Position numbers and translations under genes: made by a program. 64,000 nucleotides of DNA. Origin: Cellulomonas chitinilytica. Lineage in GTDB: Bacteria; Actinomycetota; Actinomycetes; Actinomycetales; Cellulomonadaceae. The notes beneath the pieces are model-generated. The model saw only the letters and a program-made list of their open reading frames with translations. It ran no database searches and was not told where the DNA came from. Location: contig NZ_BONK01000007.1 of assembly GCF_016862675.1 (NCBI RefSeq), positions 186,001 through 250,000 of the forward strand, written 5' to 3'. How positions within the stretch are numbered: position 1 is the first letter of the stretch; each line of letters begins with the position of its first letter. Positions 45,030-58,205 of the stretch are shown here, piece after piece.

Positions 45030-45730
45030 GCCGGGACCTCCGAACGGTCGGACGGGCGCATGGTCGGGAACGGGAGCAGGGGGGCGGACAGGCCGACGGT
45101 CTCGCTCGGCGGCCCGGCCGAGACCAGGTCGGCGAACCGGGCGGCCGTCGCCTCGTCGACCGCGGGGAGCGTGAGGCAGACGGCGTCGACGACGTGCGCG
45201 TACGGGCTGCCGACGTGGTGCAGGGCGGAGCGGAGCAGCTCGATCCCGGCGCGGTGCGAGCCGAGCAGCGCGTCCGCGACGGGCCCGGGGTCGCGGGCCG
45301 AGAGCTCCAGCACGGTCGGCAGGTGGTCGGGCAGCTCGTCCTCCCGCGGCTCCCAGCCGCACGCGCGGTACGCCTCGACGAACGTCACGAGGGCCATCCC
45401 GCGCCGTCGGGTGTCGCCCGCGGCGTAGTAGCTCAGGTAGAGCGCGCAGCGGCGGCGCTGGTCGAACGTCTCGACGTAGTGGACCTGCTGGGTGTCGAGG
45501 TCGAGCGCGTCGGCCGCGTCGAGGAACGCCGTGAACGCCGTCGCGACCGGGGCGGACAGGATCGCGGTCGAGTCGCGGATCAGCCCGTGCCGCTCGCGCA
45601 GCTCGGAGGTCGGGTAGTCGAGCAGCAAGGAGGCGGCCATGTGCGCGACGACCCGTTCGCTCGGGTGCGCGACGACGGGCTCGAGGAACGGCAGGGACGG
45701 CGGGCGGCCGGTGCCGGCGCGGCGGCTCAT
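45026..45730 (-). CDS. narJ: Nitrate reductase assembly chaperone
   Basis: 234 residues, all helical. Y-V-E-T-F-D-Q-R-R-R-C-A-L-Y-L-S-Y-Y-A-A-G-D-T-R-R-R-G is the NarJ/TorD family block. It guides insertion of the molybdenum cofactor and Fe-S clusters into NarG. Overlaps narH and narI. Confidence 0.96.
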   Translation of the reverse strand: MSRRAGTGRPPSLPFLEPVVAHPSERVVAHMAASLLLDYPTSELRERHGLIRDSTAILSAPVATAFTAFLDAADALDLDTQQVHYVETFDQRRRCALYLSYYAAGDTRRRGMALVTFVEAYRACGWEPREDELPDHLPTVLELSARDPGPVADALLGSHRAGIELLRSALHHVGSPYAHVVDAVCLTLPAVDEATAARFADLVSAGPPSETVGLSAPLLPFPTMRPSDRSEVPA

Positions 45731-47409
45731 GCGTGGGCCTCCGGTCCGTCGCCGTAGCCGGGCTGGCCCTTCTCCGGCGGGAACATCCCGGGCGGTGCGC
45801 CGTTGCCGTCCCAGTTGAGCAGGTTGACGCGCGTCGGCGTCGCTCCTGCGGGGGTGTCCGCGGTCTGCCGGTTGCGCAGCGCGTGGAACGTCTCGACCGC
45901 GGCACGCACCGGGCGGCCCGACGACGACCCGAAGCGGCCGCCGCCGCCCATGCCGGGCCCGCCGTCGACGTCGAGCGAGCAGCCCGACGCCGTCTCCTCC
46001 AGCGCCCGGGCGCTCTCGGCGTGCGCTGCCGGGATCACATATCGATCCTCATATTTCGCGATCGCGAGCAGCCGGTACATGGCCTCGATCTCCTCGGCCG
46101 TCATGCCGACCGCCTGCGCGATGCGGGGGTCCTGCTCGGCGCCGAGGTTGACGTTGCGCATGTGCGCCCGCATCGCCGCGAGCCGTTGCAGCACGGCCGT
46201 CACGGGTGCGGTCTCGCCCGCGGTGAACAGGCCGGCGAGGTACTCGACGGGGATGCGCAGCCGGTCGATCGCCGCGAACAGCGTGCGGGCGTCCTCCCCG
46301 TCGTTGCCCGACCCGGTGACCACGTCGACCACCGGCGAGAGCGGCGGGATGTACCAGACCATCGGCATCGTCCGGTACTCGGGGTGCAGCGGGAGGGCCA
46401 CCTGGTACGTCGAGATGAGCGCCCAGATCGGGGAGCGCTGCGCGGCGAGGACCCAGTCGTGCGGGATGCCCTCGGCCTCCGCCGCGGCGACGACCGCCGG
46501 GTCGTGCGGGTCGAGCAGCACGGACCGCTGCGCGTCGAGCAGCTCGGCCGGGTCCTCGACGGACGCGGCCTCCAGCACCCGGTCGGCGTCGTACAGCACG
46601 AGCCCGAGGTAGCGCAGCCGGCCGACGCACGTCTCCGAGCACACCGTCGGCAGCCCGACCTCGAGGCGCGGGTAGCACATCGTGCACTTCTCGGCCTTGC
46701 CGGTCTTGTGGTTGAAGTAGACCTTCTTGTACGGGCAGCCCGACACGCACATGCGCCAGCCGCGGCACTGGTCCTGGTCGACGAGCACGATCCCGTCCTC
46801 GGCCCGCTTGTACATCGCGCCCGACGGGCACGACGCGACGCACGACGGGTTGAGGCAGTGCTCGCAGATGCGCGGCAGGTAGAACATGAACGCCTGCTCG
46901 AGCTCGGCGGTGACCTGCTCGCTCATCTGCTTGAGGATCGGGTCCTGCGCCATCGTCTCGGTCGAGCCGCCGAGGTTGTCGTCCCAGTTCGCCGACCAGT
47001 GGATCTGCATGGCCTTGCCCGTGAGCAGGGACATCGGGCGAGCGACGGGCGTGTGCTCGCCCTGCGGGGCGGACAGCAGGGTGTCGTACTCGTACGTCCA
47101 CGGCTCGTAGTAGTCGCGGATCTCCGGGAGCTTCGGGTTCGAGAAGATGTGCGACAGCTTGGTGAACCGCCCGCCGGACCGGAGCTTCAGGCGTCCTCGC
47201 TTGGTGCGGACCCAGCCGCCGCCCCACTTCTCCTGGTCCTCGTACGTGCGCGGGTAGCCGACGCCCGGCCGCGTCTCGACGTTGTTGAACCAGACGTACT
47301 CGACGCCCGTGCGGTTCGTCCACGCCTGCTTGCACGTGACCGAGCAGGTGTGGCAGCCGATGCACTTGTCGAGGTTCATCACCATCGCCATCTGCGCCAT
47401 GACCTTCAT
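45727..47409 (-). CDS. narH: Respiratory nitrate reductase beta subunit
   Basis: 560 residues. Ferredoxin-type cysteine groups C-I-G-C-H-T-C-S-V-T-C, C-E-H-C-L-N-P-S-C-V-A-S-C-P, C-R-G-W-R-M-C-V-S-G-C-P (Trp in place of one Cys, giving the normal 3Fe-4S cluster) and C-T-M-C...C-S-E-T-C-V-G-R. It carries electrons from NarI to NarG. Its C-terminal region has a Gly/Ser-rich stretch and a P-P-E-K-G-Q-P-G tail longer than in E. coli. An AT-rich codon patch lies at 46036-46056. ATG start. Confidence 0.97.
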   Translation of the reverse strand: MKVMAQMAMVMNLDKCIGCHTCSVTCKQAWTNRTGVEYVWFNNVETRPGVGYPRTYEDQEKWGGGWVRTKRGRLKLRSGGRFTKLSHIFSNPKLPEIRDYYEPWTYEYDTLLSAPQGEHTPVARPMSLLTGKAMQIHWSANWDDNLGGSTETMAQDPILKQMSEQVTAELEQAFMFYLPRICEHCLNPSCVASCPSGAMYKRAEDGIVLVDQDQCRGWRMCVSGCPYKKVYFNHKTGKAEKCTMCYPRLEVGLPTVCSETCVGRLRYLGLVLYDADRVLEAASVEDPAELLDAQRSVLLDPHDPAVVAAAEAEGIPHDWVLAAQRSPIWALISTYQVALPLHPEYRTMPMVWYIPPLSPVVDVVTGSGNDGEDARTLFAAIDRLRIPVEYLAGLFTAGETAPVTAVLQRLAAMRAHMRNVNLGAEQDPRIAQAVGMTAEEIEAMYRLLAIAKYEDRYVIPAAHAESARALEETASGCSLDVDGGPGMGGGGRFGSSSGRPVRAAVETFHALRNRQTADTPAGATPTRVNLLNWDGNGAPPGMFPPEKGQPGYGDGPEAHA

Positions 47410-47426
47410 GCGACTCTCCCTGCCCG

Positions 47427-50400
47427 TCAGTACGTGACGTCTTGCGACCGACGTCGGATGGTCGTGACCTCGTCGCGCTGGTTGCCCGTCGGGCCGAGGT
47501 AGTTGAACGCGAACGAGAGCTGCGCGTACCCGCCGACCAGGTGCGACGGCTTGAGCAGCACGCGGGTCAGCGAGTTGTGGATGCCGCCGCGCAGGCCCGA
47601 CGTCTCCGAGCGCGGGACGTCCACCGTGCGGTCCTTCGCGTGGTACATGAAGACGGTCCCGGCGGGCATCCGGTGGCTGACGATCGCGCGGGCGACGACG
47701 ACGCCGTTGCGGTTGTAGGCCTCGATCCACTCGTTGTCCCGGACGCCGATCGCGGTGGCGTCCTGCGGGGACATCCAGATCGTCGGGCCGCCGCGCGAGA
47801 GCGACAGCATGAACAGGTTGTCCTGGTACTCGGAGTGGATGGACCACTTGGAGTGCGGCGTCAGGTACCGGACGGTGACCTCGGCGTGGCCCTCGGACCC
47901 GGGTGTGCCCGACGGGCCGGTCGCGCCGGGCGTGCGGTCGCCGAACAGGCGGCCCAGGTCGAGCGGCGGCCGGTACACGGGCAGGTTCTCGCCGAGCTCG
48001 CTCATCCAGTCGTGGTCGAGGAAGAAGTGCTGCCGGCCGGTGAGCGTGTGCCACGGCTTGAGCTGCTCGACGTTGATCGCGAACGCGGTGTACCGGCGGC
48101 CGCCGTGCTCCGACCCCGACCACTCGGGCGACGTGACGACCGGGACGGGCCGGGCCTGCACGTCGGGGAACGTGATGCGCTTGCCCTCGTGCTCGCGCGC
48201 CAGCCAGGCGAGCTCCGTGCCGGTCTGGGCCTCGACGTTCTCGAAGCCCTGCACCGCCAGCCGGCCGTTCGTGGTGCCGGACAGGGCGAGGATCGTCTCG
48301 CAGACGTGCTGCGCGGTCGCGAGGCGGGGCCGCCCGGCGGCCGGACCGTCGGGGACCGTGCCGTTGAGCCGTCCGAGCTCGGCGACCTCCAGGTCGGGCA
48401 TGAACTTCACGCCCTTGGTCACCATGCCGGCCGTCGCGGTGAGCGGGCCGAGGGACGTGAACCGGTCGGCGAGCGCGGTGTAGTCCCGCTCGACGACGAC
48501 GAGCTTCGGCATCGTCACGCCCGGGACCAGGTCGTCGACCTCGGTCACGGTGCCGTGCGGGGTCGCCATCTCGTCCGGCGTGTCGTGCATCAGGGGCACC
48601 GCGACGAGGTCCTCGCGCTTCCCGAGGTGCCCCTCGGACAGCCGGGACACGGCCCGCGCGAGCGTGACGAAGATGTCGAAGTCCGTGCGGGTCTGCCACG
48701 GCGGCGCGATGGCCGGGTTGAACGAGTGCACGAACGGGTGCATGTCCGTGGTCGACAGGTCGTGCTTCTCGTACCAGGTCGCCGCGGGCAGGACGACGTC
48801 GGAGAACAGCGTCGTCGACGTCATCCGGAAGTCGCTCGTGACGAGCAGGTCGAGCTTGCCGCGGGGTGCCTCGTCGTGCCACGTCATGCTCGCCGGGCGC
48901 CGGTCCGGGCCGGACTCCTCGGCCATCACGGCCGCGTCCGTGCCGAGCAGGTGGCGCAGGAAGTACTCGTTGCCCTTGCCCGACGAGCCGAGCAGGTTGG
49001 CCCGCCAGATCGTCAGCACGCGCGGGAAGTTCGCCGGGTCGTCCGGGTCCTCGCACGCGAAGCCGAGCCGGCCCGCCTTGAGCTCGTCGACGACGTACGC
49101 CGACGGCTCGACGCCCGCGGCCCGCGCCTCGTCGACGAGGTCGAGCGGGTTGCGGTCGAACGTCGGGTACGACGGCATCCACCCGCGCCTGGCCGACTCG
49201 ACCAGGCAGTCGGCCGTCGTCCGGCCCGCGAACTTCCCCTCGGCCAGCGGGGACGCGAGCGCGTCGGCGGGGAGCCCGTCGTAGCGCCACTGGTCGGTGG
49301 CGAGGTACCAGAACGCGGTGCCGATCATCTGCCGCGGCGGCCGCACCCAGTCGAGGCCGAACGCGTACTGCGCCCAGCCAGTCACCGGGCGGCACTTCTC
49401 CTGGCCGACGTAGTGCGCCCAGCCGCCGCCGTTGACGCCCTGGCAGCCCGTCATCGTCACGAGCGCGAGGAACGTGCGGTAGATCGTGTCCGAGTGGAAC
49501 CAGTGGTTGGTCCCGGCGCCCATGAGGATCATCGAGCGGCCGTTCGAGTCCTCGGCGTTCTGCGCGAACTCCCGGCCGATCCGCTCGGCGGCGGCGGCGG
49601 GGACGCCGGTGATCTCCTCCTGCCACGCGGGCGTGCCGGGGGTGCTCGGGTCGTCGTAGCCCGTCGGCCAGGTGCCGGGCAGGCCGTCGCGGCCGACGCC
49701 GTACTGGGCGAGCAGCAGGTCGAAGACCGTGGTGACGACGGCGTCGCCGAGACGGGTGACCGGGACGCCGCGGCGGACCACGCCCGCGCCGCCGGTGTGC
49801 TGGGCGTCGGCGTCGCCGTCGCCGCCCGCGCCCGCCGTCACGTCGAACCGCGGCAGGTCCACCGCGACCGCGTCGCCGTCGTGCGTCGCGAGGTCCGCCA
49901 CCGACATGACGGGCTCGATCGAGCCCAGGTCGAGGTTCCACGACCCCGCCTGCGCGGGGTCGAACCGGTGGCCCAGCGTCCCGTTCGGCACGCGCGGAGA
50001 GCCGTCGGCGTCGAGCACCACCGTCATGAACGCGGCGTCGCGCCCGTGCGTGTCGCGCGGGGCACCGTCGGGACCGGCGACCGGCCCGTCGAGCTGGTCC
50101 GCCGTGAGGAACTTGTCCGGCACCCACGCGTCGCCGCGCTGCTTGAGCGTGATGAGGTGCGGCGCGTCCGTGTACCGGTTCAGGTAGTCGACGAACCGGG
50201 CCGTGCGCCGCTCGACGAGGAACTCCCGCAGCACCACGTGGCCCATCGCGGTGGCGAGCGCGCCGTCCGTGCCGGGGTGCGGGGCGAGCCACTCGTCGGC
50301 GAACTTCGTGTTGTCCGCGTAGTCGGGGGAGACGGTGACGACCTTCTGGCCGCGGTACCGGGCCTCCGTCATGAAGTGCGCGTCGGGCGTGCGCGTCACC

Positions 50401-51206
50401 GGCACGTTCGAGCCCCACATCATCAGGTAGCTCGCGTTCCACCAGTCCGCCGACTCCGGGACGTCCGTCTGGTCGCCGAACACCTGCGGGGAGGCGACCG
50501 GCAGGTCCGCGTACCAGTCGTAGAACGACAGCATCGTGCCGCCGAGCATCGTGACGAACCGTGCCCCCGACCCGTGCGACACCATCGACATCGCCGGGAT
50601 CGGCGAGAAGCCGGCGACCCGGTCCGGGCCGTACGTCTTGATCGTGTGCACGTGCGCGGCGGCGACGATCTCCGCCGCCTCGTCCCACGACGCCCGGACC
50701 AGCCCGCCCTTGCCGCGCGCCGACTTGTACGACCGCGCCGTCTCCGGGTCGCCCGTGACCTGCGCCCACGCGAGCACCGGGTCGCCCGTGCGTTCCTTCG
50801 CCGCCCGGTACGCCCGCAGCAGCGCGCCGCGCACGTACGGGTACCGCACCCGCGTCGGCGAGTACGTGTACCAGGAGAACGCCGCCCCGCGCGGGCACCC
50901 CCGGGGCTCGTACTCGGGGGAGTCCGGGCCGACCGACGGGTAGTCGGTCTGCTGCGTCTCCCACGTGATGATGCCGTCCTTGACGTACACCTTCCACGAG
51001 CAGGAGCCCGTGCAGTTCACGCCGTGCGTCGAGCGGACCACCTTGTCGTGCGACCAGCGGTCCCGGTAGAACGCGTCGCCCTGCCGGCCGCCCTCGAGGA
51101 ACAGCGCACGCTTGTCGGCGGACATCGTGCCGGGCCGCAGGTGCGAGCCGAGGCTCAGGAGCGCGTCGATCGCGGCGTTGTCGGTGCCGGCGGGGGACGG
51201 GTTCAC
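47427..51206 (-). CDS. narG: Respiratory nitrate reductase alpha subunit
   Basis: 1259 residues. The N-terminal H-G-V-N-C-T-G-S-C-S-W and E-P-R-G-C-P-R-G hold the FS0 cluster ligands. S-A-D-W-W-N-A-S-Y supplies the molybdenum Asp ligand, and later segments are those of the bis-MGD domains (M-G-A-G-T-N-H-W-F-H-S-D, T-S-D-F-R-M-T-S-T-T). It reduces nitrate to nitrite on the cytoplasmic side; no twin-arginine leader is seen. GTG start with AAGGAGG. Downstream of narK. Confidence 0.98.
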   Translation of the reverse strand: MNPSPAGTDNAAIDALLSLGSHLRPGTMSADKRALFLEGGRQGDAFYRDRWSHDKVVRSTHGVNCTGSCSWKVYVKDGIITWETQQTDYPSVGPDSPEYEPRGCPRGAAFSWYTYSPTRVRYPYVRGALLRAYRAAKERTGDPVLAWAQVTGDPETARSYKSARGKGGLVRASWDEAAEIVAAAHVHTIKTYGPDRVAGFSPIPAMSMVSHGSGARFVTMLGGTMLSFYDWYADLPVASPQVFGDQTDVPESADWWNASYLMMWGSNVPVTRTPDAHFMTEARYRGQKVVTVSPDYADNTKFADEWLAPHPGTDGALATAMGHVVLREFLVERRTARFVDYLNRYTDAPHLITLKQRGDAWVPDKFLTADQLDGPVAGPDGAPRDTHGRDAAFMTVVLDADGSPRVPNGTLGHRFDPAQAGSWNLDLGSIEPVMSVADLATHDGDAVAVDLPRFDVTAGAGGDGDADAQHTGGAGVVRRGVPVTRLGDAVVTTVFDLLLAQYGVGRDGLPGTWPTGYDDPSTPGTPAWQEEITGVPAAAAERIGREFAQNAEDSNGRSMILMGAGTNHWFHSDTIYRTFLALVTMTGCQGVNGGGWAHYVGQEKCRPVTGWAQYAFGLDWVRPPRQMIGTAFWYLATDQWRYDGLPADALASPLAEGKFAGRTTADCLVESARRGWMPSYPTFDRNPLDLVDEARAAGVEPSAYVVDELKAGRLGFACEDPDDPANFPRVLTIWRANLLGSSGKGNEYFLRHLLGTDAAVMAEESGPDRRPASMTWHDEAPRGKLDLLVTSDFRMTSTTLFSDVVLPAATWYEKHDLSTTDMHPFVHSFNPAIAPPWQTRTDFDIFVTLARAVSRLSEGHLGKREDLVAVPLMHDTPDEMATPHGTVTEVDDLVPGVTMPKLVVVERDYTALADRFTSLGPLTATAGMVTKGVKFMPDLEVAELGRLNGTVPDGPAAGRPRLATAQHVCETILALSGTTNGRLAVQGFENVEAQTGTELAWLAREHEGKRITFPDVQARPVPVVTSPEWSGSEHGGRRYTAFAINVEQLKPWHTLTGRQHFFLDHDWMSELGENLPVYRPPLDLGRLFGDRTPGATGPSGTPGSEGHAEVTVRYLTPHSKWSIHSEYQDNLFMLSLSRGGPTIWMSPQDATAIGVRDNEWIEAYNRNGVVVARAIVSHRMPAGTVFMYHAKDRTVDVPRSETSGLRGGIHNSLTRVLLKPSHLVGGYAQLSFAFNYLGPTGNQRDEVTTIRRRSQDVTY

Positions 51207-51241
51207 GGCTGCCTCCTTCGAGGGTGGTCGTCGAGCGGGCG

Positions 51242-52552
51242 TCAGCTGGGGCGCGGTGCGCCCGGGCGGGCGTACTGGCGCCAGACGAGCGCCGTGCAGA
51301 GGGCGAAGTAGACGGCCGCGCCGACGAAGAACGCCTGCGGGGCGACGAGCGACAGGCCGATGCCGACGAGGAACGGCCCGAACGCCGCGATGGCCGAGGT
51401 GAACCCGATGACGCCACCGGCCCGGCGGCGGTCGAAGATCATCGGCATCTGCTTGAACGTGCCCGCGTTGCCGATGCCGGCGAACGTGAAGATCGCGAGC
51501 ATCCCGCCGAGGAACAGGCCGAACGTGCTGGTGTCGCTCGGGTCGAGGAAGAAGACCGTGAACACCGTCGCGGCCGTCATGCCGATCCCCGAGACCAGGG
51601 TCCAGACCGCGCCGCCGAACCGGTCGCACAGCGGGCCCCACGCGGCGCGGGTGATCGAGCCGAGCAGCGGGCCCAGGAAGACGTACTTCAGCGGGTCGGG
51701 CGCGCCCTCCATGCCGTCGTACATGTTCTTGATGAGCAGGCCCATCTGGGCGGCGAAGCCGGAGAACGCCCCGAACGTCATGACGTAGACGGCCGTCATG
51801 TACCAGGTGTGCTTCTCGCCGAAGATGTCGAGCTGCTCGCGGAAGTTCGCCTTGAGCGGGATCCGCCGCAGCCCGACCGCCGCGAGGATCGCGCCGAGCA
51901 CGACCCACGGGATGAGCACGAGGCCCGCGTTGTGCAGGTAGATCTCCGAGCCGTCGGCCTTGACCTGCGGCGACAGCGCCGCCGTACCGAGCAGGCCGAA
52001 CCCGACGACCCAGGGCACCAGGAACTGGATGAGGCTCACGCCGAAGTTGCCCAGGCCCGCCTGCAGGCCGAGCGCGGTGCCCGCCATCCGCTTGGGGAAG
52101 AAGTAGCTCGTCGACGGCATGAACCCGGCGAACGCGCCGCCGCCGATGCCGCCCGCCGCCGCGAGGAGCAGCAGCATCGAGTACGGGGTGGACGGGTCAC
52201 GGACCGCGAGCACCCAGCCCGCCATCGGCAGCACCATGAGCGTCGCCGTGCCGCCGACGAGCGTGCGGGTGCCGACGATCGGCGGCAGGAACATGTAGAT
52301 CAGCCGGCCGATGCCGCCCGCGAGGCCCGGGATCGCCGCGAGCCAGTAGAGCTGGCCCTTCGACAGGTCGTACCCGATGTCGTTGAGCCGGGGCGCGATC
52401 GCGCTCACCAGGTACCAGACGCAGAACGCGAGCGTGAGGTTGTACGTGGTGATCGCGAGCGTCCGCCACGCGAGGCGCTTGTCCCACGTGGCCTCGTTCT
52501 CCGGGTCCCAGCCCGTCAGAGGGGGCCGGCGCAGCAGGGTGAGGGTCGACAT
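51242..52552 (-). CDS. narK: Nitrate/nitrite transporter
   Basis: 436 residues, about 12 helices of the MFS nitrate-nitrite porter family. Signature blocks are F-M-P-S-T-S-Y-F-F-P-K-R and A-G-I-G-N-A-G-T-F-K-Q-M-P. Brings in nitrate and/or expels nitrite. It is the first gene of the nar operon, 35 bases ahead of narG. ATG directly after a CGGGAGGTCCCG palindrome-like ribosome site. Confidence 0.96.
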   Translation of the reverse strand: MSTLTLLRRPPLTGWDPENEATWDKRLAWRTLAITTYNLTLAFCVWYLVSAIAPRLNDIGYDLSKGQLYWLAAIPGLAGGIGRLIYMFLPPIVGTRTLVGGTATLMVLPMAGWVLAVRDPSTPYSMLLLLAAAGGIGGGAFAGFMPSTSYFFPKRMAGTALGLQAGLGNFGVSLIQFLVPWVVGFGLLGTAALSPQVKADGSEIYLHNAGLVLIPWVVLGAILAAVGLRRIPLKANFREQLDIFGEKHTWYMTAVYVMTFGAFSGFAAQMGLLIKNMYDGMEGAPDPLKYVFLGPLLGSITRAAWGPLCDRFGGAVWTLVSGIGMTAATVFTVFFLDPSDTSTFGLFLGGMLAIFTFAGIGNAGTFKQMPMIFDRRRAGGVIGFTSAIAAFGPFLVGIGLSLVAPQAFFVGAAVYFALCTALVWRQYARPGAPRPS

Positions 52553-52663: not shown

Positions 52664-53392
52664 TCACAGGGGCCCGGCGGCGGGCCCCCGGTCGGCGCTC
52701 ACGAGCTGCAGCACGCAGTGCTCCGGCCCGACGAACGGCAGGAGCTTGTGGGCCGCGACCGGTCCCGGGACGGCGTCGAGCACGCCCTGCGCGAGCCCCA
52801 GGTGCACGTTGCAGACGACCTCCGGCCGGGCCTGCGCCAGGTCCAGGAACGGGCAGCGGTACAGGTGGAAGGCCATCTCGTCCCGGTCGAGCTCCGGGTC
52901 GAAACCGAGCCGCTCCAGGTGCCCCTCGAGCGCGTCGAGCTGACGGTCCACGACCGGGGTGCCCTCGGCCGGCGTCGGGACGGCGTGCAGGTCGGGGTCG
53001 GCGACCATGGCCCGTCCGGCGGCCTGCGCGGCGTCGGGCGCCGAGCGGACCTCGCGCCCGTAGCCCTCCAGGAGGACGCGGGTGAGCGCGACGCGCGCGA
53101 TCGACTCCTCGAGCCGGCGCCGCGCGTGCGGGTCGGCGCGCACGTCGTCCGCCGACACCGCCCGGTACACCATCCGCGGCCGCCCCCGGACGGTGCGCCG
53201 CTCCGGCGTGCGCTGCGCGAACCCGTCCGCGACGAGCCGCTGCAGGTGCTCCCGCGTCGTGTTCTCGTGCAGGCCGGTCGCCGTCGCGAGCTCGCCGATG
53301 GTGTGCTCGCCGCCGTCCTGCAGCAGGTGCAGCAGGTCCACGCGGCTGCCGGACGCGAGGGTGCGTGCGGCCTGGGTGCGGCGGACGGACAT
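52664..53392 (-). CDS. SufR-like helix-turn-helix regulator with three cysteines
   Basis: 242 residues. The N-terminal winged helix (T-I-G-E-L-A-T-A-T-G-L-H-E-N-T-T-R-E-H-L-Q-R-L) is of the ArsR/DeoR type. The C-terminal domain has Cys180 (Y-R-C-P-F-L), Cys194 (V-V-C-N-V-H) and Cys226 (E-H-C-V-L), the pattern of SufR-type proteins that hold a Fe-S cluster. It lies between narK and the nitrite reductase genes, so I infer that it reports nitric oxide, oxygen or cluster state to these operons. ATG start. Confidence 0.85.
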   Translation of the reverse strand: MSVRRTQAARTLASGSRVDLLHLLQDGGEHTIGELATATGLHENTTREHLQRLVADGFAQRTPERRTVRGRPRMVYRAVSADDVRADPHARRRLEESIARVALTRVLLEGYGREVRSAPDAAQAAGRAMVADPDLHAVPTPAEGTPVVDRQLDALEGHLERLGFDPELDRDEMAFHLYRCPFLDLAQARPEVVCNVHLGLAQGVLDAVPGPVAAHKLLPFVGPEHCVLQLVSADRGPAAGPL

Positions 53393-53433
53393 ACGAGCAG
53401 TATCGGTCGACGGACCGGGGGCGGTGCGTGGGA

Positions 53434-53460
53434 CGGAGGTCCCGAGCACCGGGACCTCCG
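53434..53460. promoter_or_regulatory. Operator-like inverted repeat, nitrite reductase promoter
   Basis: Perfect 11-base dyad CGGAGGTCCCG with a five-base spacer, in the divergent region of the three-Cys regulator and the NirK operon. Likely binding site for the regulator, though GGAGGTCCCG also turns up as ribosome sites nearby. Confidence 0.55.
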
Positions 53461-53501
53461 ACCCAGGCCGACGGGCACCGTGGATAACTAGCGTCAGGCC
53501 C

Positions 53502-54617
53502 GTGGAAAACCTTCGCGGCGGGACCCGGCCGCCCCTGCGCGTGCTGCTCCTGGCGCCCGCCGGGCTGGCCCTGCTGGCGGGGCTCGACGGAGCGCTCGTG
53601 CTGCTGGGCGTCCCCGCGCCCGTGCGCCTCGACCGGCTCGCGGACGTGCACGGCCAGCTCATGGTGCTCGGCGTCGTCGGCACGCTCGTCGCGCTCGAGC
53701 GGGCCGTCGCCGTGCGCACGCCGCTCGCGTTCGCGTCCCCGATGCTGCTCGCCGCCGGCTCTCTCGCCCTGCTGAGCGCGGCACCCCCAGCCGTCGGCCG
53801 GGGCCTGCACCTCGCCGGCACCCTCGCGCTCGTCGGGATCTACCTGCTCGTCTGGCAGCGCCAGCCGGCGTCCGCGGTCGCCGTGCAGGGAGCCGGAGCG
53901 CTCGCGGCCGCCGGGTCGGCGCTGCTCCTCGTCGCCGGCGTGCCCGTGCCCGTCGTCACGCCGTGGTTCGTCGCGTTCCTCGTCCTGACGGTCGTCGGCG
54001 AGCGCCTCGAGCTCATGCGGTTCGCCCCGCCGCCCGTCGCCGTCCGTGCCGCGGTCGTGGTGGCCGCGCTGCTGCTGGTCGCGGGCGCGGCCGTCGCGCT
54101 GCTGCAGCCACGCGCCGGGGGTGCGGTGCTCGGCGGCGCGCTCGTCGGCCTCGCGGTGCTCCTCACCCGCCACGACGTCGCCCGCCGGACGGTCCGCAGC
54201 ACCGGTCTGCCGCGGTTCATGGCGCTCGCGATGCTGACCGGCTTCGCGTGGCTCGCGGTGGCTGGCGGGACCTGGCTCGTCGCGGGTGCCGCGACCGAGG
54301 GGCCGGGGTACGACGCCGTGCTGCACGCCGTGTTCCTCGGGTTCGTCATGTCGATGGTCTTCGCCCACGCGCCCGTGATCCTGCCCGCCGTGCTCCGCAG
54401 GCCGCTGCCGTACCGGCCCGTGATGCTCGTGCCGCTCGCGCTGCTGCACGTCTCGCTCGCGTTCCGGCTGCTCGCCGGGGACGCGTGGGGGAGCGTCACG
54501 GCAGTGCGGGTCGGTGGCGTCGCGAACGTCGTGGCCGTCCTGGCGTTCCTCGGGGTGGCGGCGTGGAGCGTCGCGTCCGCGCCGGCACCGGCGAGCCTCG
54601 CCGTGGTCGCGCCATGA
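53502..54617 (+). CDS. Polytopic membrane protein upstream of nirK
   Basis: 371 residues, about 11 hydrophobic helices. Conserved-looking polar patches are V-H-G-Q-L-M-V-L-G, V-A-L-E-R-A-V-A, V-G-E-R-L-E-L-M-R-F and F-A-H-A-P-V-I-L-P-A-V-L. The histidines and acidic residues inside helices recall NnrS-type heme-copper proteins of the NO response, but I cannot assign it firmly. GTG start; stop overlaps the NirK start by ATGA, so the two are made together. Confidence 0.75.
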   Translation: MENLRGGTRPPLRVLLLAPAGLALLAGLDGALVLLGVPAPVRLDRLADVHGQLMVLGVVGTLVALERAVAVRTPLAFASPMLLAAGSLALLSAAPPAVGRGLHLAGTLALVGIYLLVWQRQPASAVAVQGAGALAAAGSALLLVAGVPVPVVTPWFVAFLVLTVVGERLELMRFAPPPVAVRAAVVVAALLLVAGAAVALLQPRAGGAVLGGALVGLAVLLTRHDVARRTVRSTGLPRFMALAMLTGFAWLAVAGGTWLVAGAATEGPGYDAVLHAVFLGFVMSMVFAHAPVILPAVLRRPLPYRPVMLVPLALLHVSLAFRLLAGDAWGSVTAVRVGGVANVVAVLAFLGVAAWSVASAPAPASLAVVAP

Positions 54618-57358
54618 GCCGGGCGTCCTGGCACCTGCGGGCGAACGCGCTCGTGGGTGCGTGGCTCGTCGCCGCGACGCTGCTGGCGCTCGGGCACCGG
54701 GCGGTCCCCGCCGCGACGTGGCTGATGGTCCACCTGCTGCTGCTCGGCGCGGTCAGCACCGCGATCCTCGTGTGGAGCCAGCACTTCGCGGACACGCTGC
54801 TGCGGCACCCCGCCCCCGGCGGGCGGGCCGGTCTCACGGCGCGGCTCGCGGCGCACACCGTGGGTGCGGTGGCGGTGCTCGTGGGGATCGCGGCGTCCCG
54901 CACGTGGCCCGTCGTCGTCGGGGGCGTGCTTGTCGCGGCCGCCGCGCTCGCGCAGGTCGTCACGATCGCCGTGCAGTCGAGGTCCGCGCTGCCGTCCCGG
55001 TTCGGGCACGCGGCCCGGTACTACGTGGCCGCGGGGCTGGTGCTGCCGGTCGCCGTGGCGTGCGGCGTCGCGATGGCGCGCGGCCACGTCCCGGACGACG
55101 CGCACGCCCGGCTGTACGTCGCGCACGTCGCGCTCGCGCTGCTCGGCTGGGTCGGCCTCACGGTGCTCGGGACGCTCGTCGTGCTGTGGCCGACGGTCCT
55201 GCACGCCAGGATCGAGCCGGAGCACGAGCGGGCGAGCCGCCGGGCGCTGCCCGTGGTGGTCGGCGGCCTGCTGCTCGTCGCGGTCGGCGCCGGGACCGGC
55301 TGGCGCCCGCTCGTCGGCCTCGGCGCGCTGGTCGTCGTCGCCGGCATCGCGCTCGGCGCCGTCGTCATGGTCGCGCAGGCGCGCACCGCGGCGCCGCGGA
55401 CCTACGCGGCGTGGAGCCTCGCGGCGGCCGTCGGGTGGCTGGCGACGTGCACGGTCGGCTTCGGCGCGGTCGTCGTCGCCGCCCCGGACTGGGTCGCCGC
55501 CGCCGAACGGCTGCGCGTGCTCGTCGCACCGTTCGCCGTCGGGTTCGCCGCGCAGGTGCTCGTCGGCTCGCTGTCCTACCTGCTGCCCGTGGTGCTCGGC
55601 GGCGGCCCGTCCGCGGCCCGGCGCACCTCCGGCGAGCTCGACCGCGGGGCGCTCGTGCGGGTGATCCTCGTGAACGGCGGGCTCGTGCTGTTCGCCGCAC
55701 CCGTGCCCAGCGCGGTCCGGGTGCTGTCGTCGATGGTCGTGCTGGGGGCGCTCGTCGCGTTCCTCGTGCTCGCCGGTCGTGCCGTGCACGCGGCCCTGCG
55801 TCCCGCTGCGGCAACCGGGCCTGCAGCGGCAACCGGGCCGGCTGCGGCAACCGGGCCTGCCGTGGCACCCGGGCCCGCGGGGACGACGGCGACCACCGCC
55901 TCGCGCAGCGGCGCCGCGGTCGTCGCGACCGGGGTGCTCGCGATGGCCGTCGCGCTGGGCGTCGCGGTCGACCCCGCCGCCGCCGGCATCGGCGTGGGCG
56001 CACCTGCGGCGGGCGTCCTCGCGACGGGCCGCACCACGACCGTCGAGGTGCGCGCGCTCGACATGCGGTTCAGCCCGTCGACCGTCCGGGTCCCGGTCGG
56101 CGACCGGCTCGTCCTCGTCGTGACGAACGAGGACGACGACGTGCACGAGCTCGTCGTGGAGACCGGCGCGCGGACCGGGCGGCTCTCGCCCGGGGCGGAG
56201 GGCACGGTCGAGGTGGGGGTGGTCGGCGGCGACCTCGACGGGTGGTGCCCGATCGCCGGTCACCGGCAGATGGGCATGGTCCTGTCGATCGAGGCCGAAG
56301 GCGGTCCGGGTGCCGCCCGCGCCGACGCCGTGACCGACTCCGTGACCGACGCCATGACCGACTCCGTGACCGACGCCGCCACGGACGCCACGGCCGAGCC
56401 GCCGGCCGGCCACGCGGGGCACGACATGTCGGGTGCCGCGTCCGCCGACGGATCCGCGCGAACCGGCTCCGCCGCGGACGACCTCGACCTCATGGCCACC
56501 CCGGGCCCGTCGTTCCGCCCGCGCGACGCGACCCTCGCGCCCGCCGGCCCGACGACCCACCGCGTGACGCTCGAGGTCCAGGAGGTCGTCCGCGAGGTGG
56601 CGCCGGGCGTCACGCAGCGGCTCTGGACGTTCGGCGGCCAGGCGCCCGGCCCGGTGCTGCACGGCCGGGTCGGCGACCGGTTCGAGGTCATGCTCGTCAA
56701 CGACGGCACGATCGGTCACTCCGTCGACTTCCACGCCGGGGCGCTCGCCCCCGACGACGTCATGCGCACCATCGGGCCGGGGGAGTCGCTGACGTACGCG
56801 TTCACGGCGACGCGGTCCGGGATCTGGATGTACCACTGCTCGACGATGCCGATGTCGATGCACATCGCGAACGGGATGTTCGGTGCGGTCGTCGTCGACC
56901 CGCCGGGCCTGCCCGCCGTCGACCGCGAGTACGTCGTCGTGCAGTCCGAGCTGTACCTGGGCCCGCAGGGGGACGTCGCCGACGCGGCCAGGATCGCATC
57001 CCGCACCCCCGACCTCGTGGTGTTCAACGGGTACGCGAACCAGTACCGCGACCGGCCGCTGACGGCCGTGGCGGGGGAGCGGGTGCGGTTCTGGGTGCTC
57101 GACGCCGGGCCGAACCTGTCGAGCGCGTTCCACGTGGTCGGCGGCCAGTTCGACACCGTCTACCGCGAGGGCGACTGGGTGCTCCGCGACGGCGGGTCGA
57201 CCGGCACGGGCGGCGCGCAGGTGCTCGACCTCGCGCCCGCGCAGGGCGGCTTCGTCGAGCTCACGTTCCCCGAGGCGGGCACGTACGCGTTCGTGTCCCA
57301 CGCGATGAGCGACGCCGAGCGTGGTGCCGTCGGGCGCGTGCGGGTCACCGACCGCTGA
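54614..57358 (+). CDS. nirK: Membrane-anchored copper nitrite reductase (fusion with TM and cupredoxin domains)
   Basis: 914 residues, about 2.5 times the usual NirK. Residues 1-395 form about 12 membrane helices. A repeat linker (~398-420) and a further hydrophobic helix (~430-450) lead to a cupredoxin with type 1 ligands His511, Cys545, His550 and Met553/555. A H-A-G-H-D linker follows, then the two-domain reductase. Its type 1 ligands are His702, Cys742, His750 and Met755; its type 2 ligands are His707, His741 and about His840, with Asp705 nearby. The Cys-x7-His spacing matches AniA-type (class II) enzymes. It reduces nitrite to NO outside the membrane, probably taking electrons through the cupredoxin. 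ATG overlaps the previous stop. Confidence 0.92.
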   Translation: MSRASWHLRANALVGAWLVAATLLALGHRAVPAATWLMVHLLLLGAVSTAILVWSQHFADTLLRHPAPGGRAGLTARLAAHTVGAVAVLVGIAASRTWPVVVGGVLVAAAALAQVVTIAVQSRSALPSRFGHAARYYVAAGLVLPVAVACGVAMARGHVPDDAHARLYVAHVALALLGWVGLTVLGTLVVLWPTVLHARIEPEHERASRRALPVVVGGLLLVAVGAGTGWRPLVGLGALVVVAGIALGAVVMVAQARTAAPRTYAAWSLAAAVGWLATCTVGFGAVVVAAPDWVAAAERLRVLVAPFAVGFAAQVLVGSLSYLLPVVLGGGPSAARRTSGELDRGALVRVILVNGGLVLFAAPVPSAVRVLSSMVVLGALVAFLVLAGRAVHAALRPAAATGPAAATGPAAATGPAVAPGPAGTTATTASRSGAAVVATGVLAMAVALGVAVDPAAAGIGVGAPAAGVLATGRTTTVEVRALDMRFSPSTVRVPVGDRLVLVVTNEDDDVHELVVETGARTGRLSPGAEGTVEVGVVGGDLDGWCPIAGHRQMGMVLSIEAEGGPGAARADAVTDSVTDAMTDSVTDAATDATAEPPAGHAGHDMSGAASADGSARTGSAADDLDLMATPGPSFRPRDATLAPAGPTTHRVTLEVQEVVREVAPGVTQRLWTFGGQAPGPVLHGRVGDRFEVMLVNDGTIGHSVDFHAGALAPDDVMRTIGPGESLTYAFTATRSGIWMYHCSTMPMSMHIANGMFGAVVVDPPGLPAVDREYVVVQSELYLGPQGDVADAARIASRTPDLVVFNGYANQYRDRPLTAVAGERVRFWVLDAGPNLSSAFHVVGGQFDTVYREGDWVLRDGGSTGTGGAQVLDLAPAQGGFVELTFPEAGTYAFVSHAMSDAERGAVGRVRVTDR
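55803..55870 (+). repeat. 18-base tandem repeat in the NirK linker
   Basis: Three copies of GCTGCGGCAACCGGGCCT-like units plus a degenerate fourth encode an A-A-A-T-G-P linker between the membrane part and the cupredoxin part. Confidence 0.65.
56328..56385 (+). repeat. 12-base tandem repeat in the NirK linker
   Basis: Copies of GTGACCGACTCC/GTGACCGACGCC encode V-T-D-S/V-T-D-A repeats between the cupredoxin and the reductase domain. Confidence 0.65.
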
Positions 57359-57406: not shown

Positions 57407-58087
57407 TCACCCGTCGCGCCAGCGCCACTCCGGCGGCTCGGGCAGCGCCTCGTGCGTCGGGTGCGCGACGAGCGCGGCGCCACGGCCGTCGAGCACCCGC
57501 ACGAGCTCGGCGACGGTCCGCCTCGACGGCCCGGGTGGCTCGTCGACCGTCACCTGCGCGTCCGGCTCGGCGAGCGTGCCGCGCGCGCCCCGCACGGTGG
57601 TGCCGCCCCAGGTCGACCCGTCGACGGACACGAGGTGCAGGTCGGCCTCCGTGAGGTCGGCGCCCCGCAGGTCCGCCCCGGTCAGGTCGGAGCGGAGCAG
57701 CTGGGTGCGCGAGAGGTCGGCGCCGGTCAGGTCGGCGCCCGACAGGTCGGTGCGCAGCAGGTCGACGCGCCGCAGCCGGGCACCCCGGGCGCGGACCCCG
57801 GACAGGTCGGCCTTGCCGAGGAGGGCACCCGTGAGGTCCGCGCCCGTGAGGTCGGCACCGACGAGGACGGCGCGGAACAGGTCCGCGCCGCGCAGGTCCG
57901 CGCCTGCCAGGTCGGCGTCCACGAGGACCGCCTCGCACAGGTCCGCGCCGGCGAGCGCGAACCCCGCCAGCCGCCGACCGCTCAGGTCGAGGCGGACGCC
58001 CTCGGTCCCGACGGTCCGCAGCCACCGGTCGTGGTCCGCCAGGGCGTCGCGCAGGTCGTCGGCCTCGGGTCCGTCCGGGTCGGGCAC
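57407..58087 (-). CDS. Pentapeptide-repeat protein
   Basis: 226 residues. About 20 pentapeptides of the A-(D/N)-L-x-x type (residues ~30-155, e.g. A-G-A-D-L, R-G-A-D-L, T-G-A-D-L, S-R-T-Q-L) should build a right-handed square helix. Some relatives mimic DNA and protect DNA gyrase, but most are uncharacterised. I use the GTG at 58087, six bases after GAGGA; a GTG six bases further up is possible. Confidence 0.88.
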   Translation of the reverse strand: MPDPDGPEADDLRDALADHDRWLRTVGTEGVRLDLSGRRLAGFALAGADLCEAVLVDADLAGADLRGADLFRAVLVGADLTGADLTGALLGKADLSGVRARGARLRRVDLLRTDLSGADLTGADLSRTQLLRSDLTGADLRGADLTEADLHLVSVDGSTWGGTTVRGARGTLAEPDAQVTVDEPPGPSRRTVAELVRVLDGRGAALVAHPTHEALPEPPEWRWRDG

Positions 58088-58205
58088 GGGCACTCCTCGG
58101 GTCGGTCGCGGTTCGGGTGCGGCGTGAGGTCCACGGTCGGCAGGTCAGCCTGCCGGGGGTACACGGTGGGAGGCAAGGCCGCGCACCGCGAGGGCCGCGG
58201 CGGCG

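Follow-up and report, generated by a model that had tools for sequence, protein, structure and literature searches.

A membrane-tethered copper nitrite reductase of Cellulomonas chitinilytica with a predicted heme-copper-oxidase fold in its membrane domain

Introduction

Actinobacterial copper nitrite reductases (NirK) of about 900 residues are already in print, and the accessible portion of that account gives them a membrane domain of about 400 residues "of unknown function"; it also describes the AniA protein of Neisseria as bound to the outer membrane (Helen 2016, PMC4770552). As regards electron supply, the available sections of work on Intrasporangium assume that the bc1 complex acts upstream (PMC6349771), and those of work on Bacillus propose a menaquinol route, which they leave unclear, and predict NirK to be a lipoprotein (PMC3475470). 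Here we analyze a nirK gene of Cellulomonas chitinilytica, an actinobacterium with a genome of 4.9 Mb, that lies in a stretch of 64,000 nucleotides (NCBI RefSeq assembly GCF_016862675.1, contig NZ_BONK01000007.1, positions 186,001 to 250,000 of the forward strand), hereafter the window. Its product joins a membrane domain, which we call M, to a cupredoxin and a copper nitrite reductase.

A sequence-only reading of this DNA had remarked that fused NirK forms are known in some actinobacteria and that the role of their membrane part is unsettled, in agreement with the accessible text of Helen 2016 (PMC4770552). The architecture of the enzyme is thus already known. What is new here is the identification of M as an oxidase-fold module, of free-standing relatives of M, and of a candidate partner protein, U, encoded directly upstream. 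A literature search, in which subscription journals were thinly covered, found no paper that gives the membrane domain an oxidase fold or free-standing partners. We suggest, as the reading towards which we lean, that M is a heme-b electron-entry module for nitrite reduction.

Results

A single chain with complete copper sites

The nirK gene is a single frame on the plus strand, running from the ATG at 54614 to a stop at 57358 and encoding 914 residues with no internal stops. A frameshift, or a separate start for the soluble part, can be rejected on this uninterrupted frame, and internal stops are likewise absent from all 80 homologous loci that we kept. In the same 80 loci the matches extend from residue 1-13 to residue 907-914, so that the membrane part is present in each of these homologues. 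The three-part chain proposed in the sequence-only reading, with a membrane domain, a cupredoxin and a class-II-like nitrite reductase, is borne out by this frame and by the family matches. Pfam places Cupredoxin_1 at residues 472-534 (E 5.8e-10) and Cu-oxidase_3 at residues 655-764, and the NCBIfam model for copper nitrite reductase, TIGR02376, matches residues 639-912 (E 6.6e-51). The score of the latter, 173.6 bits, misses the curated cut-off of 296.3 bits, which is a naming threshold and not a functional feature; only 4 of the 149 genomes of our phylum sample exceed it. The best sequence matches in the PDB are 2dv6, which we take to be the Hyphomicrobium-type NirK and which covers the reductase and, weakly, the cupredoxin part, and the AniA-like 1kbv.

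In an alignment of 81 fused chains (the window and the 80 loci), the six ligands named earlier, His511, Cys545 and His550 of the cupredoxin and His702, Cys742 and His750 of the reductase, are invariant, as is Met555. The same holds for D705, H707, H741, H840 and H896, which leaves Met755 as the sole copper-site residue that varies (79 Met, 2 Leu). From the familiar motif pattern of these enzymes, Met555 and Met755 are presumably the axial ligands, His707, His741 and His896 the type 2 ligands, and Asp705 and His840 the catalytic pair. Judged by its sequence, the 914-residue chain is a membrane-tethered copper nitrite reductase with complete copper sites.

M has a predicted oxidase fold

A model of M was built from residues 1-403 together with 55 relatives. 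It contains 12 transmembrane (TM) helices with two shorter elements within (mean predicted local distance difference test score, pLDDT, 96.0; predicted template modelling score, pTM, 0.93). Foldseek comparison with 350,542 PDB chains returned 332 matches at E<=10. All nine that reached E<=0.001 are catalytic subunits of cbb3 oxidases or nitric oxide (NO) reductases, and the 50 rows inspected are without exception chains of heme-copper oxidases or NO reductases, with query TM-scores of 0.43-0.72 at identities of 8-15%. It is near certain, on this model, that M has the heme-copper-oxidase fold.

Kinship in sequence with the heme-copper oxidases appears weak. The Pfam family COX1 was matched by 3 of the 56 M members (best E 8.7e-6), and a rescan of nine members matched none. 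A local hhalign match pairs TM5-6 of M with TM9-10 of FixN, and the threefold repeat in the oxidase fold may account for this pairing. NnrS (PF05940) was considered as an identity for M and set aside, being absent from the Pfam families listed for the 56 members (25 of 33). A search of the organism's own genome for NnrS says nothing about absence, since the same search matched none of 14 control genomes.

Residues kept and lost in M

Three membrane residues, H40 on TM2, H171 on TM6 and Q314 on TM10, are invariant in the 81 fused sequences and likewise in 17 of 17 free-standing M sequences. H57 is histidine in 79 of the 81 fused sequences. Residue 114, on TM4, is histidine in 72 of them and glutamine in the window and eight others.

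To compare ligand places among helices we counted back from the proline that closes each helix. On this count, the ligands on TM10 stand at -22 and -20 in FixN and NorB, and the TM6 histidine of FixN at -20. The places of the TM10 HxH motif are taken in M by L303 and A305, with histidine in 0 of 56 fused and 0 of 18 free-standing rows, and, in an alignment by eye, the window has GTG-WR where NorB has the GTG-HH of TM7. Since the TM7 HH and the TM10 HxH are both absent, the classical oxygen- or NO-reducing site is gone from M. The TM2 and TM6 histidines expected of oxidases are found, by helix order and by eye, as H40 and H171. H171 lies at -22 on TM6, and H40 takes the -20 place on TM2 if that helix is laid, again by eye, on the TM2 of the pSymA protein described below. 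In oxidases, a residue at -22 points into the pore that its helix shares with the inner helix before it, and one at -20 into the pore shared with the inner helix after it. Read in this way, H40 and H171 would both point into the TM2-TM6 pore, a disposition that would suit one bis-histidine heme b.

The pSymA protein is a multi-helix protein of 452 residues (L083:33235-34590, minus strand) encoded on the Sinorhizobium meliloti replicon of that name, some 3.5 kb away from the place where tblastn with the 914-residue protein matched nirK (L083:28804-29709). It is free-standing, and like M it has a TM2 histidine 20 and a TM6 histidine 22 residues before the closing proline. Among five single sequences it was the best hhalign partner of M, at a probability (28.6%) that is not significant. 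It may be a free-standing proteobacterial relative of M.

Topology

The sequence-only reading counted about 12 helices. That figure stands for M itself, as modeled, and the chain as a whole has 13, because hydropathy places a further hydrophobic segment, centered at residues 439-454, beyond the twelve. Loops 2, 4, 6, 8 and 10 of M carry on average 1.95-3.88 lysines and arginines, and the odd loops 0.18-0.96. By the positive-inside pattern, both ends of the 12-helix domain, including the N-terminus of the chain, would lie inside, and the extra helix would carry the cupredoxin and the reductase to the outside.

Relatives that carry the fusion

The fused set comprises the best 80 of at least 442 confirmed relatives from a scan of genome contigs, ranked by match. 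It includes Cellulomonas, Cryobacterium, Microbacterium, Georgenia, Nocardioides, Streptomyces, Mycolicibacterium, Rhodococcus and others. A ranking by match puts shorter forms lower, and this set therefore cannot show that shorter forms are absent; the accessible text of Helen 2016 states that the transmembrane domain is not in every actinobacterial NirK (PMC4770552). In a tree of membrane domains, the rows nearest to the window are from Cellulomonas, and the 56 fused domains are set apart together by a branch with support 100/98; the program warned of long branches in this tree. Such a separation fits a single fusion event. One record, titled 'Bacillus sp. AZ43' (L073, UNVERIFIED_ORG), groups within the actinobacterial sequences and is probably mislabelled.

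Free-standing relatives of M

We searched the 149 genomes of the phylum sample with a profile of M and found it in 23: five fused, 17 free-standing and one weak match (G031), which is left out of the counts. The free-standing forms lie in stop-to-stop frames of 410-638 residues around a domain of about 400. NirK (TIGR02376, 1.3e-87 or better) adjoins the free-standing M in 4 of the 17 loci (L120, L121, L126 and L129), and at L126 NirK, a cupredoxin and M are three separate neighboring genes. Cupredoxin frames lie close to M at L115 and L123, and at L116 there is a cupredoxin-multicopper oxidase that resembles copper-resistance oxidases more than NirK. The remaining nine loci show no NirK, cupredoxin or U nearby; four of them (L119, L124, L127 and L128) are near contig ends. 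At L125 (G023), where the genome has no strong NirK match, U neighbors a free-standing M, and the U-M pair may there serve another copper enzyme.

NirK is matched strongly and over its full length (E 3.2e-43 or better) in 20 of the 149 genomes. M is present in 16 of these 20 as against 6 of the 129 others (Fisher p 2.5e-13, uncorrected for kinship), and with the five fused genomes excluded it is present in 11 of the 15 strong-NirK genomes (p 1.5e-9, likewise uncorrected). The four NirK genomes without M are G017, G089, G102 and G122.

Gene U, a candidate partner

The start of U, the GTG at 53502, was picked by comparison with two homologous loci (L003 and L007). A U homologue lies directly upstream of the fused nirK in 69 of the 80 loci, and in 32 of these 69 the two genes overlap by 4 bases, counted from where the tblastn match begins. 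Of the two fused NirK genes of Cryobacterium suzukii (L037 and L047), one is preceded by U and the other is not. The model of U also has 12 helices (pLDDT 94.9). Its 179 fold matches are headed by 13 heme-copper oxidases or quinol-dependent NO reductases, and 0 of the 179 reach E<=0.001. H42 on TM2 and H267 on TM10, the latter 20 residues before the closing proline, are invariant in 42 aligned U rows; in their predicted helices they sit at the classical low-spin heme places. U and M are not close relatives in sequence (hhalign probabilities of 3.0% and 5.9%), and NnrS was also discarded as an identity for U, with no match for the window protein and one of 42 members at E 0.84. In the phylum sample, U occurs without M in three of the seven genomes that have it.

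A single draft genome, of Georgenia sp. SYP-B2076, carries U and the membrane-cupredoxin-NirK chain as one frame of 1309 residues (L070:4759-8685), which is either a natural fusion of U to NirK or the result of a lost stop.

Genomic surroundings

The features of the locus are collected in Table 1. A homologue of the divergent regulator is present in 44 of 80 loci. Beside the nirK region, on the minus strand (45727-52552), there are frames that by eye resemble subunits of a respiratory nitrate reductase, together with a NarK-type transporter of the major facilitator superfamily (MFS_1). Just downstream of nirK, also on the minus strand (57407-58093), is a frame with the look of a pentapeptide-repeat protein (many ADLxx units). 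The genome as a whole has a single COX1-family match; if this is read as the aa3 oxidase, a heme-copper NO reductase is not recognized in it.

Table 1. Features of the nirK locus, in window coordinates.
Feature	Position	Strand	Basis and remarks
Divergent helix-turn-helix (HTH) regulator	52664..53476	-	HTH_IclR/HTH_5 matches; weak NCBIfam HTH below cut-off; start approximate
Gene U, predicted 12-helix oxidase-fold protein	53502..54617	+	GTG start; stop overlaps nirK start (ATGA)
Membrane domain M, residues 1-403	54614..55822	+	predicted 12-TM heme-copper-oxidase subunit I fold; invariant H40, H171, Q314
13th transmembrane helix, about residues 434-456	55913..55981	+	hydropathy and positive-inside charge pattern of M; ends estimated
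Cupredoxin domain, about residues 466-565	56009..56308	+	Cupredoxin_1; type 1 copper site H511/C545/H550/M555
Two-domain copper nitrite reductase, about residues 626-914 and stop	56489..57358	+	TIGR02376; PDB 2dv6, 1kbv; ligands
Reductase sites			type 1 H702/C742/H750/M755; type 2 H707/H741/H896; also D705, H840

Discussion

We propose, leaning towards it at somewhat better than even, that M is an oxidase-fold module through which electrons enter, probably from menaquinol, and pass to the cupredoxin and on to NirK, with a putative heme b and a putative quinol-oxidizing role. Menaquinol, with the help of U where U is present, would reduce M; one low-spin heme b, bound by H40 and H171, would lie near the outer face; from this heme the electron would pass to the cupredoxin copper, then to the type 1 and the type 2 copper of the reductase; and nitrite would be reduced to NO at the type 2 copper. 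One type 2 ligand of copper nitrite reductases is supplied by the neighboring subunit, and a trimer is to be expected here as well. The sequence-only reading had already suggested a path from a membrane carrier through the cupredoxin to the catalytic copper. That suggestion gains support from the predicted oxidase fold of M, from its two invariant membrane histidines and from its relatives beside NirK and cupredoxin genes, with the individual electron steps still put forward by inference; the oxidase-like fold, the 13th helix and the partner gene U are additions to it.

Several observations weigh against this electron-entry proposal. Sequence kinship with the heme-copper oxidases is weak: Pfam (up to E 10) has no family that matches the M of the window, NCBIfam gives nothing useful for it, PDB sequences searched with a profile of M yield no hit up to E 10, and the hhalign comparisons with individual FixN, NorB and NnrS sequences are not significant. 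The geometry of H40 and H171 is drawn from helix positions. The 16 genomes in which M and strong NirK co-occur comprise five with the fusion, four with NirK beside M and seven with NirK elsewhere, and six genomes have M without a strong NirK match. U is missing from three of the five fused genomes of the phylum sample and from 11 of the 80 fused loci, where a copy is found elsewhere in seven genomes and none in four (the same search matched all three control genomes). Lastly, in the accessible text of Helen 2016, the homologous cupredoxin of Hyphomicrobium is too distant from the catalytic core, and the mutant is more active (PMC4770552).

A more specific form of the proposal may be offered tentatively, as a possibility that we would not yet bet on. 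M would then represent an as yet unnamed branch of the heme-copper-oxidase fold, one that lost its oxygen or NO site and became a pure quinol-to-copper wire, with the heme b of H40 and H171 in the TM2-TM6 pore, a third of a turn away from the classical low-spin heme. The fused protein would act as a menaquinol:nitrite oxidoreductase in a single chain and bypass the bc complex, and U, where present, would be a second heme b subunit with the classical site.

It is also conceivable, and in our view unlikely, that M is a mere anchor, the degenerate relic of an oxidase, with the bcc complex or another donor reducing the cupredoxin directly. Such a relic would be expected to lose the canonical ligands for heme and copper on TM7 and TM10, as M has, and parallels can be found in the accessible parts of the literature: the NirK of Bacillus is merely lipid-anchored (PMC3475470), a study of an actinobacterium assumes that the denitrification enzymes require the bc1 complex upstream of them (PMC6349771), and some actinobacterial NirK proteins do without the transmembrane domain (Helen 2016, PMC4770552). 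Against this, an anchor has no use for H40 and H171, and the invariance of these residues and of Q314, in fused and free-standing forms alike, is hard to explain for it; moreover, a free-standing M gene cannot tether NirK covalently.

Less probable again is a role of M, with or without U, in handling a ligand or cofactor, be it copper or heme delivery to NirK or the cupredoxin or the binding or removal of NO: M shares its predicted fold with NO reductase (3o0r_B, 4xyd_A), the organism's one COX1-family match leaves no NO reductase recognized, and the occurrence of U without M implies that U at least has other duties, but without the TM7 HH and TM10 HxH there would be no classical NO-reducing site, the NO-linked, oxidase-like NnrS is not among the M families shown and matches U in a single row at negligible strength, and within the chain the cupredoxin separates M from NirK, the position expected of a relay.

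The predicted fold of M and its three invariant membrane residues supply the exact residues on which the electron-entry proposal can be tested. If M is such a module, nitrite reduction could run without the bc complex, an oxidase scaffold having been re-used as a wire, and a bacterium that lacks soluble cytochrome c could feed nitrite reduction from the membrane.

Among known systems, the closest is the NirK of the Propionibacterium acnes type (clade II), which has the same N-terminal transmembrane domain of about 400 residues followed by a cupredoxin and NirK; as far as the available part of its description goes, no structural difference is seen. The Hyphomicrobium-type NirK (2dv6) joins a cupredoxin and NirK in one chain like the protein of the window, but the membrane domain is missing there. 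AniA and the other class II enzymes (1kbv) share the reductase domains and all their copper ligands, AniA being a single two-domain reductase. In the NirK/NirS fusions of Chloroflexi with cytochrome C1 and cupredoxin, as far as the accessible text goes, a redox carrier has likewise been joined to a nitrite reductase, but a c-type cytochrome takes the place of the oxidase-fold membrane domain (PMC8756737). With the catalytic subunits CcoN of cbb3 oxidase and NorB, finally, M shares the 12-helix fold, as predicted, and the histidines of TM2 and TM6, while differing from them in the absence of the TM7 HH and TM10 HxH, in an identity of about 10% and in the want of any sequence-profile match in the PDB.

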